In this document: one piece after another, positions 7,459-50,674 of the stretch
Position numbering within the stretch: the stretch's first letter is position 1
Layout of the letters: every line of letters begins with the position of its first letter
Assembly (NCBI GenBank): GCA_902825965.1
Contig: CADEDA010000004.1
Location: 171,498-235,497, forward strand
DNA: 64,000 nucleotides
Direction: 5' to 3'
Source: an uncultured Gemmatimonadota bacterium
GTDB taxonomy: Bacteria > Gemmatimonadota > Gemmatimonadetes > Gemmatimonadales > Gemmatimonadaceae
Position numbers and translations under genes: made by a program
Notes under the pieces: generated by a model
Told to the model about the DNA's origin: nothing
What the model saw: only the letters and a program-made list of their open reading frames with translations
Database searches by the model: none

Positions 7459-7469
7459 GAGCGCGGAGC

Positions 7470-7592
7470 GAGGGGGAGGGGGAAGGGGAAGGCCCAGGGA
7501 GAGAGCGGAGGGCGGAACCTCACCCTTCACCACTGTATTCTTCCGGTACCACCATTCACCATCCAGCATCCACCATCCAACCTCCACCATCC
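7470..7592. repeat. Intergenic heptamer-repeat element 1 (G-arm then C-arm)
   Basis: Between the GroES-like and bacilliredoxin genes. Positions 7470-7516 are almost purely purine (GAGGGGGAGGGGGA...). Positions 7548-7592 are C-rich and built from about six seven-base units (ATTCACC, ATCCAGC, ATCCACC, ATCCAAC, CTCCACC). The C-arm ends one base before the bacilliredoxin ATG, so it would form its mRNA leader. Same design as four other elements in this window. Confidence 0.7.
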
Positions 7593-10173: not shown

Positions 10174-10303
10174 AGGTGGCTGCGGTGTGGGTGGAGGTGG
10201 AAGGCGGCCCGGTCCGGGGGGATGCGCAAGGGAGCGAGTCCCCGTCGGAGACCCGCCCCCTCATCGCCGTTCCTCACACCTCACACCTCACACCTGCCCC
10301 TCT
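10174..10303. repeat. Intergenic heptamer-repeat element 2
   Basis: Occupies the gap between the sigma gene and the ABC permease stop. The G-arm at 10174-10206 contains GGTGTGG GTGGAGG TGGAAGG; the C-arm at 10270-10298 has three exact copies of TCACACC. The arms are partly complementary, separated by about 65 bases. Confidence 0.7.
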
Positions 10304-23875: not shown

Positions 23876-24380
23876 TCCCCGGCATCGTCGCCCGGGCGTG
23901 CGTCGCGTGTCGGGTACCTGCCTCGCCACCGCGACCAGCGATCACCAGCGATCACCAGCGATCACCAGCGATCACAACGAACACCATCGGACGTCAGGCA
24001 GCGCCGTGCACGGGCGCGGACGGAGGACGAACCGTTGGTGCAATGGCATACGGCCGGCCTCGACGCGATCGACTCGGTGCCGCGGCGAGCAAGAGCGTGA
24101 GATTCGGCATCGATGTCCGAGTGACCGATGTCTGGCTCCACGGCCTAACGTTGCGTTCCACTGTGCTCGTTCGCATCGACTGCGGGTTGGTTGCTGCGCT
24201 GCCCCTTCAGGAGCGAAAGGGCGCGGCTACTGTCCCAAGATCTCGCGGATCAACCTCGTATCGTCGCTGAACGGCCCACCGCAACGTCAGTGGGCGGCCA
24301 AGGTCGGGTCGTGGCCGCTCGCGGAGGGTCCCGCGCCGCGAGCCGCGCAGCGAGCCGCCATGCATCAGCGCCGACGCTCG
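23876..24380. other. Gap of about 500 bases with tandem repeats, no convincing gene
   Basis: Contains a four-copy 10-base tandem repeat at its start. Open frames on both strands are short and do not look protein-like. A GCCTAAC heptamer near 24145 resembles the start of an integron attC site but lacks the matching end. I see nothing else definable here. Confidence 0.4.
23935..23974. repeat. 10-base tandem repeat, four copies
   Basis: The unit CCAGCGATCA is repeated four times without change from 23935. It lies 60 bases downstream of the FG-GAP gene, in a gap with no convincing gene, and is period-10 like the array at 50604. Confidence 0.75.
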
Positions 24381-43767: not shown

Positions 43768-43865
43768 AGGGGTGAGGGGTGAGGTGTGAGGCGTGGGGAA
43801 GGGAGACGCGGGCCTGTGGAGGAATGCCGTCGTTCCTCCCACCTCCCACCTCACACCTCCCACCT
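43768..43865. repeat. Intergenic heptamer-repeat element 3, inside the suf operon
   Basis: Lies between sufC and sufB. The G-arm (43768-43803) reads GGGGTGA GGGGTGA GGTGTGA GGCGTGG; the C-arm (43836-43865) reads CCACCTC CCACCTC ACACCTC CCACCTG. The arms are largely complementary over about 25 bases, separated by about 33 bases. Sits between two genes of the same operon, so it would be transcribed. Confidence 0.8.
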
Positions 43866-43869
43866 GCCG

Positions 43870-45303
<1,434 letters not shown>

Positions 45304-45629
45304 GCTGCCGACTGGTTCAGGGATCGCCCGCTATAGACTAGCAATCTAGTCGGGAATCATTTGAACGCATAGGATGATGGCCGGGGTTCCGAACGGTGAT
45401 CGGTGGTGTGAGGTGGAGGCGCAGGGCGACGGTGCGGCTCACCCTCCCGGCCCAAACTCGGGCTTCAGCTGGAAGCTCGCATCAAGCAACCGCCCGCAAA
45501 CAAATGATTGCCGACGCGGCATAAGCTTTGTTCTGACTATGCGATAGGTAGATGCTGCAGTCGAAGCCAAGCGGGCGAAACAACCCTCCGACACATCCAC
45601 CCTCGACCATCCATCATCCACCATCCACC
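45304..45629. other. Gap with suf promoter and heptamer-repeat element
   Basis: No convincing gene in these ~326 bases. Holds the suf operon leader, the palindrome at 45336-45351 and the two arms of heptamer-repeat element 4. A possible 64-residue minus-strand frame (45439-45633) looks like a shadow. Confidence 0.5.
45336..45351 (-). promoter_or_regulatory. 16-base inverted repeat upstream of sufB
   Basis: GACTAG-ATTG-CTAGTC in the leader of the suf operon: six-base perfect arms with a four-base loop. It lies 33-48 bases upstream of the sufB ATG, beside a TATAG motif. It resembles, but does not match in spacing, the GACT...AGTC half-sites of IscR-type operators. Best seen as a candidate operator for an Fe-S-responsive regulator encoded elsewhere. 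Confidence 0.5.
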
Positions 45630-45635
45630 TCACCC
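45401..45635. repeat. Intergenic heptamer-repeat element 4
   Basis: G-arm at 45401-45419 (GGTGGTGTGAGGTGGAGG) and C-arm at 45594-45635 with about six seven-base units (CATCCAC, CATCCAT, CATCCAC, CATCCAC), about 175 bases apart. The C-arm runs into the stop of the diguanylate cyclase gene. Confidence 0.65.
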
Positions 45636-46829
45636 CCTGAGCAGCGCCTCTTCCACCGCCCCATACACCTCAACCCGGTTCCGCCCAAGCGCCTTCGCCC
45701 GGTACATCGCCTTGTCGGCGTGCTGCAGGGCCACCGGTACCGTCATGCCGTCGGCCAACGGTGCGATGCCGCTGCTCACCGTGATCACCAGCGAGGCGCC
45801 GTTGCTCACGGCGATCGGGGACTCACCCACCGACTTCCGCACGCGCTCGAGCGCGTAGAGCGCCTGCTGCGGGTTCGTGTCCGGCAGCAGCACCACGAAC
45901 TCCTCGCCGCCGATCCGGCCCACGATCTGCTCCTGGCGCAGCGTGTCCTCGATCCGCTTCGCGACCTCGCGCAGCACGTCGTCACCGATCGCGTGGCCGT
46001 GCGTGTCGTTGATCTCCTTGAAGTGGTCGAGGTCGAGCAGCGCGATCGCGATCGGCTTGCCGCGACGCCGGCTGCCCGCGATCACCGGTTCGATGTCGTC
46101 GAAGAACGAGCGCCGGTTCTTGAGCCCCGTCAGCTCGTCCACCATCGCGAGGTCCGACATGCGCGAGAGCATCAGCTCCAGCTGCACGCCGCTCTCCTTC
46201 GCCTCCTGCAGCAGCCGGTCGCGCTCCACCAGCACGCGGACGTTCTCCACGAACTGCCGCCAGGTGGTGCGGGTGAAGAGCAGCGCGCAGGCGATGAACA
46301 CCGCGATCGACGCCGGCAGCACCGGCGAGCGCAACGAGCTGAACGTGAGCGCCTGCGCCAGCAGCGTCAGCATGAACGGCAGGTAGAAGCCGATCGATGC
46401 CATCGGGCTCGACGAGAAGAACGCCACCGAGCCGGCGCAGAGGCCCGCCATCATCATCACCAGCGCGGCCCGCTCCTCCGGGCCGCCCGCCGGGAACAGC
46501 GCGAACGCCGCCATCGCCCACAGCAGCCCCGCCGTCGTGGAGAAGATCAGCGCCCGCCGCTCGTTCCCCGGACTCACCCGCAGCGGACGCACCTTGTGCC
46601 GCAACCGTCGCCAGCTGAGGATGGCCGGCGTCCATAGCACGATCATCGCCGCCACGAACAGCACGAGCAGCGTGCGGAACACGTGGTCCCAATACACGAT
46701 CGCGATGAACATCGCGAGCAGCGGGTTCGCCGCGAACACCGTGGGCAACTGCTGCACACGGGCCACCGCCTGCGACACGCGGATCTCGCGCAGCAGGGCG
46801 TCGGACGGGTTGGGGATGGGGAACCACAT
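45630..46829 (-). CDS. Diguanylate cyclase (membrane GGDEF protein)
   Basis: 399 residues. Five to six membrane helices (about 35-190) are followed by a short coiled-coil and a GGDEF domain (about 230-395). Active-site motif GGEEF and substrate-binding LDLDHFKEINDTHGHAIGDD are intact. It likely makes cyclic di-GMP in response to a membrane-located input. The allosteric I-site RxxD is not evident upstream of GGEEF (QEQIVGRIGGEEF). The ATG at 46829 was chosen. Divergent from the membrane protein at 46910. Confidence 0.9.
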   Translation of the reverse strand: MWFPIPNPSDALLREIRVSQAVARVQQLPTVFAANPLLAMFIAIVYWDHVFRTLLVLFVAAMIVLWTPAILSWRRLRHKVRPLRVSPGNERRALIFSTTAGLLWAMAAFALFPAGGPEERAALVMMMAGLCAGSVAFFSSSPMASIGFYLPFMLTLLAQALTFSSLRSPVLPASIAVFIACALLFTRTTWRQFVENVRVLVERDRLLQEAKESGVQLELMLSRMSDLAMVDELTGLKNRRSFFDDIEPVIAGSRRRGKPIAIALLDLDHFKEINDTHGHAIGDDVLREVAKRIEDTLRQEQIVGRIGGEEFVVLLPDTNPQQALYALERVRKSVGESPIAVSNGASLVITVSSGIAPLADGMTVPVALQHADKAMYRAKALGRNRVEVYGAVEEALLRG

Positions 46830-47502: not shown

Positions 47503-47577
47503 GAGAGGTGAGAGGAGCGCATCGCGCATGCCCCTCTCACCTCTCACCATCCACCATCCACCTTCCACCTCACATCA
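47503..47577. repeat. Heptamer-repeat element 5 with a perfect 13-base hairpin
   Basis: GAGAGGTGAGAGG at 47503-47515 is exactly complementary to CCTCTCACCTCTC at 47533-47545, with a 17-base loop that contains GCGCATCGCGCATGC. The C-rich side continues as seven-base units (TCTCACC TCTCACC ATCCACC ATCCACC TTCCACC) up to the end of the propeller gene. Lies between convergent genes, so could terminate either. Confidence 0.8.
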
Positions 47578-50603: not shown

Positions 50604-50674
50604 TGCACTGGCCTGCACTGGCCTGCACCGGCCTGCACCGGCCTGCACCGGCCTGCACCGGCCCGCACCGGCCG
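50604..50674. repeat. 10-base tandem repeat, about seven copies
   Basis: The unit GCCTGCACYG is repeated about seven times from 50604 (with TGCACTGGCC, TGCACCGGCC variants). It lies just past the 3' end of the FAD-subunit gene and before the LA_2272-type gene's promoter region. Period-10 like the array at 23935. Confidence 0.8.

Follow-up and report, generated by a model that had tools for sequence, protein, structure and literature searches.

Among the long simple repeats of many bacterial genomes, heptamers have been noted to be the most frequent, and there is no agreement on their cause. Of the kinds described so far, the elements reported here come closest to the G-rich intergenic heptamers of Rehm et al. 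(2015; PMC4692102), namely GGGNATC in Xanthomonas and GGGGA(C/T)T in Nostoc, which form inverted pairs (70-75 per genome) and to which no function could be assigned. The cyanobacterial STRR are likewise intergenic tandem heptamers but are described, in the partial accounts by which they are compared here, as direct repeats and not as two-arm elements. In Geobacter metallireducens, the class 3 paired sites of tandem heptanucleotides (MTYCTGA, 16 copies, in one species) were read as protein-binding sites (PMC2700814), and marine Beggiatoaceae carry a single unit, TAACTGA, in 169 direct-repeat sets and one indirect repeat, its function being not known (PMC4679880). Also, the P6b stem of the Nostoc tRNA-Leu (trnL) intron consists of complementary 7-nt repeats, of which two alternative classes give similar structures (PMC4476775).

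Here we describe inverted heptad elements in an uncultured Gemmatimonadota bacterium (host genome, G000; 4.07 Mb in 73 contigs) and its relatives, starting from one stretch of 64,000 nucleotides (the window), for which an original prediction had proposed a dispersed family of such elements. Like the heptamers of Rehm et al., they are 7-nt intergenic units, over-represented in intergenic DNA, in which the gene nearest to the G strand lies on its 5' side whatever the strand of that gene; they overlap stop codons, are few between divergent genes, form inverted pairs, and keep positions mostly common to related species while their lengths change. The likeness to the heptamers of filamentous cyanobacteria drawn in the original prediction is apt, but the inverted G-rich arm, offered there as the distinguishing feature, is already present in Xanthomonas and Nostoc (PMC4692102). 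The narrow family is nonetheless a different one: the units here are GGTGTGA, GGTGGGA, GGTGGAT and many others in relatives, neither GGGNATC nor GGGGAYT; no three-tetrad quadruplex motif occurs in the 25 arms scored in G000; and several vocabularies swap at the same sites within the one genus, with octamer versions and occurrences in other phyla.

The other systems are similar in part. The Geobacter class 3 sites, with about five heptamers to an array, are depicted on the two opposing strands, but no switching of vocabulary is described there (PMC2700814). The Beggiatoaceae arrays stand directly upstream of start codons, as here (PMC4679880), and the Nostoc P6b stem shares the complementary 7-nt repeats but is one stem in one intron and not dispersed (PMC4476775). 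REP, BIME and REPIN are, like our elements, dispersed intergenic palindromes at gene ends; unlike them, our elements have arms of tandem heptads with no conserved sequence, and the RAYT transposase was undetected in 17 genomes of the genus. A literature search returned nothing on octamer units and nothing on heptads in this phylum.

Five inverted heptad elements in the window

C-rich 7-nt arrays were found at all five gene boundaries named in the original prediction, and across a spacer from each stands a G-rich arm, clear in two copies and weaker in three. Genes were called with our own simple codon-model finder, not with Prodigal, and predicted starts may be off. The features, in window coordinates, are as follows.

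7467..7513, + strand: purine-rich left arm, period 7 not clean, following a Cpn10 (GroES-like) gene on the 3' side of its stop codon
7549..7593, + strand: C arm of ATCCACC-type heptads, immediately 5' of the ATG of a Disulph_isomer-family gene
10177..10206, + strand: G-rich left arm with partial periodicity
10272..10295, + strand: C arm with 3.4 perfect units of CCTCACA; the stop of an ABC2_membrane_3 gene (- strand) is 7 nt away
43768..43867, - strand: entire inverted element in the sufB/sufC gap, for which a long hairpin of -54 kcal/mol (z -3.9) is predicted in the RNA
43771..43795, + strand: G arm of four GGTG-type heptads, between the sufC start (43758, - strand) and the spacer
43796..43833, no strand: spacer between the arms, including GGAATGCCGTCGTTCC
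43834..43865, + strand: C arm of four to five heptads (CCTCCCA/CCTCACA), stopping 5 nt short of the sufB stop codon (- strand)
45398..45420, + strand: short G arm, GGTGGTGTGAGGTGGAGG
45594..45636, + strand: C arm of CATCCAC-type heptads, extending into the stop of a GGDEF gene (- strand)
47503..47515, + strand: G arm, GAGAGGTGAGAGG
47531..47576, + strand: C arm of seven heptads, covering the stop of a Vgb_lyase gene (- strand)

From dinucleotide shuffles, 0.04 matches to the pattern ACCNNNCACCNNNCACC would be expected in the window, where six are found; with one mismatch allowed, 19 are found for 1.94 expected. Nearly all of these lie at the five sites. Every copy lies at a gene boundary, its C arm at most about 9 nt from the right-hand gene or slightly overlapping it. 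That both arms are built of heptads, as had been predicted, holds in full at 43768, where the products of the flanking genes belong to SufBD_core and ABC_tran (Pfam) and where the only clean G-arm array (four units) is found; elsewhere it holds in part, the G arm being two units long at 47503 and at 45401 and the left arm merely purine-rich or partly periodic at 7470 and 10174. In the C arm at 47531..47576, the first 13 nt (47533-47545) are perfectly complementary to the G arm at 47503..47515 and the remainder is unpaired. No terminator-like site (a GC hairpin with a T run) was found at 43768-43865 or 47503-47577; by eye, T-tailed hairpins were seen between the arms of some further copies. Covariance models of Rfam 15 gave zero matches within the window at the gathering threshold.

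The window holds other short repeats as well, namely seven near-perfect 10-bp copies of TGCACCGGCC between predicted genes (50604-50673) and about five copies of the 10-bp unit ACCAGCGATC (23934-23986).

Genome-wide placement and anatomy

A four-unit pattern has 42 matches in the host genome, counted as overlapping matches and not as separate elements; the backwards reading of this pattern has 9. With this count, and with independently assembled relatives sharing the anatomy, the pattern is not an artefact of one sequence. The prediction of a dispersed, non-coding family of inverted 7-nt arms at gene boundaries is supported. A hairpin-like heptad element occupies about one in ten sizeable intergenic gaps in the host and its relatives; these genome-wide figures rest on pattern searches and on sampling about 0.7 Mb from G000 and about 0.4 Mb from each relative.

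The layout is constant irrespective of gene strands: gene edge, purine arm, spacer, pyrimidine arm, gene edge. The arms often begin inside a stop codon (GGTGTGA provides TGA), and their far ends lie a few bases ahead of a start or stop. The enrichment at gene boundaries that the prediction called for is evident in four sampled genomes of the genus, in which the distance from array to gene edge has a median of 7 nt against 25 nt for random placement (p 1.4e-7). In the same genomes, arrays occur in 18 of 55 convergent, 39 of 330 co-directional and 8 of 209 divergent gaps of at least 60 nt, from which it follows that they favour stop codons and avoid promoters.

Within the spacers there is frequently a GC-rich hairpin of its own, followed by a T-rich tail. 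Downstream of the SAHase gene, at its 3' end, a terminator of this sort stands without heptad arms in G012 and is flanked by arms in G000, G009, G006 and G016, a comparison which suggests that arms were added around a pre-existing terminator.

Even where no array is present, the sense strand ahead of start codons is rich in pyrimidines, the purine fraction being mostly 0.40-0.48 in G000, G004, G009 and G011, and purine-rich Shine-Dalgarno leaders seem uncommon in this genus. We also noticed that AACKGC/GCMGTT motifs recur at element edges, beside arms of differing vocabularies, in G000, G009 and G011; in G011 they are present in 13 of 20 gaps with arrays and 20 of 105 others, which is suggestive only, the motif having been spotted by eye before the test.

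Polarity of the arms

The order of the arms, purine arm first, is close to absolute. All 20 two-arm elements of G000 are G-first, and among 395 genomes of the phylum, about 199 G-first match positions (overlaps counted) were found in 26 genomes against zero C-first. The unrelated unit GACGGAN, put through the same test, gave 98 G-first and 0 C-first. The sole C-first count was in G098, which has 25 matches to the backwards-read control CCACNNNx3 ... GTGGNNNx3; this may be a different repeat.

Vocabularies across genomes

The vocabulary of units is largely common to the copies across each genome, although several unit types can coexist within one, and is nearly exclusive among species of the one genus. 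CACC-type arrays number 42 in G000, 32 in G016, 27 in G009 and 26 in G006 and are missing from the counts of G004 and G007 (0 in each). Three consecutive GACGGAN units, conversely, match 213 times in G004, 100 in G007, 16 in G002, 10 in G015 and 0 in G000, and three AGTTGNN units 43 times in G011, 6 in G002 and 0 in G000. Families of 8-nt units, CACGAAGG/CCTTCGTG among them, are additionally present in G011. The prevailing units of more distant relatives are other GGTGNNN sets, namely TGACACC (G019), TTTCACC (G023), and GGGCACC with GAACACC (G018). An element of the relative G377 is identical in sequence to a locus (L205) of a Gemmatimonadetes MAG, by which the phylum would be Gemmatimonadota. 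Among the matches listed, with one polarity searched and going by the labels of the genomes, two-arm elements of this sort are also found in Acidobacteriota, Planctomycetota, Cyanobacteria, Bacteroidota, Caulobacteraceae and others.

Several observations accompany these counts. Inverted arms of period 8 in G011, CACCACGAAGGCACGAAGACACGAAGG ... CCTTCGTGTCTTCGTGGTG, have the same polarity as the heptads (L289:14134-14380 and L294:17246-17360, which are G011:C1:194134-194380 and G011:C1:297246-297360). In Acidobacteriota JAFAZX (L196:4374-4514 and L206:733-864), outer GTAGGCA/TGCCTAC arms surround inner GGTGCTG/CAGCACC arms, so that two vocabularies are nested in one element. CACCTCA is under-represented in predicted coding DNA of G000 (68 against 108 expected), G009 (31 against 53) and G004 (25 against 39). 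Two ideas on the units were dropped: stop codons in all frames as the cause of period 7, several units (GGTGGGA, GTTGGGA and CACGAAGG) containing no stop, and a resemblance to the anti-Shine-Dalgarno sequence (CACCTCC), which is missing from many vocabularies.

Replacement of units at conserved sites

From the proteins beside junctions that bear an element in G000, eleven segments were used to find the corresponding places in 16 relatives, and the sequence was read at ten junctions. Across species the hairpin sites are retained, whereas the units of both arms are exchanged for others. In the sufB/sufC gap, G000 and G009 have GGTGGGA/GGTGTGA units with TCACACC in the right arm, and other species have, as left/right arm pairs, GACGGAA/TTCCGTC (G007), GACGGAT/ATCCGTC (G004), GATGAA/TTCATC (G014), GTTGGGA/CCAACT (G011) or an octamer type, CACAGAG/CTCTGTG (G015); in five species, this gap is merely a pyrimidine-rich spacer of 37-63 nt. 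When orthologous gaps of 60-250 nt were scored blindly for arrays of period 7 or 8, an array was present in 26 of 33 against 34 of 325 background gaps in that length range (odds ratio 32, p 6e-17), the junctions having been picked for G000 elements and conserved genes and the relatives not being phylogenetically independent.

Some of the junctions compared lack the element: short spacers stand there in G003, G012 and G013, and the gcvT gap is 0-1 nt in G001 and G011. The element is therefore dispensable. In G011 and G007, copies within a genome are more alike than they are to their G000 orthologues, although the numbers are small. Between G001 and G008, whose genes are 89% identical in nucleotides, sites are common and arms differ by whole 7-nt units, with complete replacement of arms at some sites. 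The unit differences agree with the contribution of slippage anticipated earlier, and the differences between the two genomes as a whole would fit slippage plus exchange.

Pairing and folding of the arms

In G011 and G004, an arm matches its own partner better than the partners in other copies (z 5.1, p 2e-4 and z 2.5, p 0.011, respectively). No such preference over the arms of other copies is present in G000 and G009; own-partner pairing had been rejected on G000 alone and was reinstated for G011 and G004, with G000 remaining an exception. Against shuffles preserving local composition, the mean fold z is -4.8 in G011, -4.3 in G004, -3.25 at orthologous sites, -1.6 in G000 and -0.6 in G009, and gaps without arrays give -0.5 to -1.3. 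The inverted pairing design is hence kept across vocabularies, and G000 tolerates copies with unlike arms.

In the window, the copies at 43768 (z -3.9; -2.95 on the opposite, + strand), 10174 (z -4.2) and 47503 (z -6.4, folded from 47490) fold well, and two of the five copies fold no better than shuffles, the 7470 copy as a whole being not significant at z +0.39. A structural hairpin, one of the possibilities originally raised, has support in several relatives and for three of the five window copies. The lack of an own-partner preference and the modest fold excess in G000, and the two window copies that fold no better than shuffles, count against the hairpin reading favoured below.

Discussion

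The reading that we favour, tentatively and with somewhat less than even confidence, is that the elements are hairpins between cistrons and at gene 3' ends, built by 7-nt slippage, homogenised between arms and copies, and serving as caps or separators. It starts from the dispersal to gene edges, the purine-first polarity, the complementary arms of several genomes, the conserved sites with replaced vocabularies and the changes in unit number. A purine-rich 7-nt array would directly follow the left gene and a complementary pyrimidine-rich array directly precede the right gene, with a spacer that may contain an older intrinsic terminator. The arms would lengthen and shorten through replication slippage in steps of 7 nt (8 nt in some genomes), while template switching at the inverted repeat and exchange with copies in the same genome would homogenise them to the local vocabulary, the property under selection being the hairpin and not its sequence; the Nostoc P6b stem (PMC4476775) is a precedent for alternative heptads giving similar structure. 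By analogy with REP-type hairpins, the product might cap transcript ends from two sides and keep adjacent cistrons apart.

A purely neutral or selfish origin is nearly as likely as hairpin function, even if doubtful in itself: slippage by 7 nt and quasi-palindromic template switching would build arrays wherever they are harmless, and gene conversion would spread the local unit. Tolerance alone likewise predicts the avoidance of divergent and the preference for convergent gaps, and the fast turnover between G001 and G008 at 89% identity, the unmatched arms of G000 and the junctions with no element all point the same way, as does the abundance of heptamers among long simple repeats of many bacteria, for which polymerase slippage has been proposed (Mrazek 2007, to the extent that it is cited in PMC4679880 and PMC4692102). 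A neutral origin fits less well with sites that are retained at 7-8 times background across the genus despite sequence replacement and with an arm complementarity that outlives that replacement, nor is a near-absolute purine-first polarity, convergent gaps included, obviously expected from it. Insertion of a mobile palindromic element (MITE- or REPIN-like) beside genes, periodically replaced by a new family, is unlikely. The elements are dispersed and inverted, hundreds of near-identical units are present in one species and none in its sister species, and the recurrence of AACKGC/GCMGTT beside arms of different vocabularies is suggestive at most. Yet the spacers vary and may hold an apparent host-gene terminator that is armless in G012, species with different families occupy common sites, and inspection by eye showed no target duplication. 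A mobile origin driven by RAYT/IS200 has no support, Y1_Tnp being undetected in this genome and in all of the 17 genus genomes, whereas a mobile element of another kind is conceivable; this absence and that of RVT_1 below concern these families only, in incomplete draft genomes.

The remaining explanations carry far less weight. G-quadruplex elements as in Xanthomonas and Nostoc, working by a four-G-tract fold, would share the geometry, the inverted pairs and the overlap with stop codons (PMC4692102), and two-tetrad motifs are present in 24 of 25 G000 arms; three-tetrad motifs, however, occur in 0 of 25 arms in G000, 0 of 31 in G011, 1 of 9 in G009 and 2 of 25 in G004, and G011, with the same architecture, has two-tetrad motifs in just 3 of 31. 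These arm counts rule out the quadruplex as a common denominator and make it a highly improbable explanation. DNA-uptake sequences of Neisseriaceae also show lineage-specific dialects and inverted pairs at gene ends, but a set of such dialects driven by biased transformation is even harder to credit here, the words being no commoner within genes than expected (for CACCTCA in G000, 68 found and 108 expected; for GACGGAT in G004, 43 found and 49 expected). Least probable of all is a telomerase-like process in which a reverse transcriptase would add repeats to broken ends, so that repeats come to meet head to head: the G strand pointing outward from both gene edges and the lineage-specific units do resemble fused telomere repeats, whereas RVT_1 is undetected in G000 and present in 1 of 17 genus genomes, several unit types occur per genome, and apparently pre-existing terminators lie between the arms.

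Returning to the hairpins that we favour, slippage alone cannot account for a vocabulary shared genome-wide, and the replacement of vocabularies has the look of a rapid rewriting across the whole genome. For the exchange between copies, neither an enzyme nor a process was found. It is possible, with some doubt, that about a hundred or more junction-conserved hairpins have had both arms converted to a species-specific, purine-first vocabulary of 7 or 8 nt by a templated or recombinational route, with neither RAYT nor RVT_1 detected.

In conclusion, three things are new: vocabularies switch at sites that are themselves conserved, the test of arm order gave counts of zero for the reverse polarity, and G-tracts are excluded as what the elements have in common. 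One genus with several vocabularies separates what is conserved (position, polarity and pairing) from what is not (sequence and G-tracts), which argues against the quadruplex as a general explanation. The slippage and hairpin-function hypotheses both become testable by comparison of close strains and, if true, the rewriting of these elements would be a rare case in bacteria of concerted evolution across many dispersed short sites.
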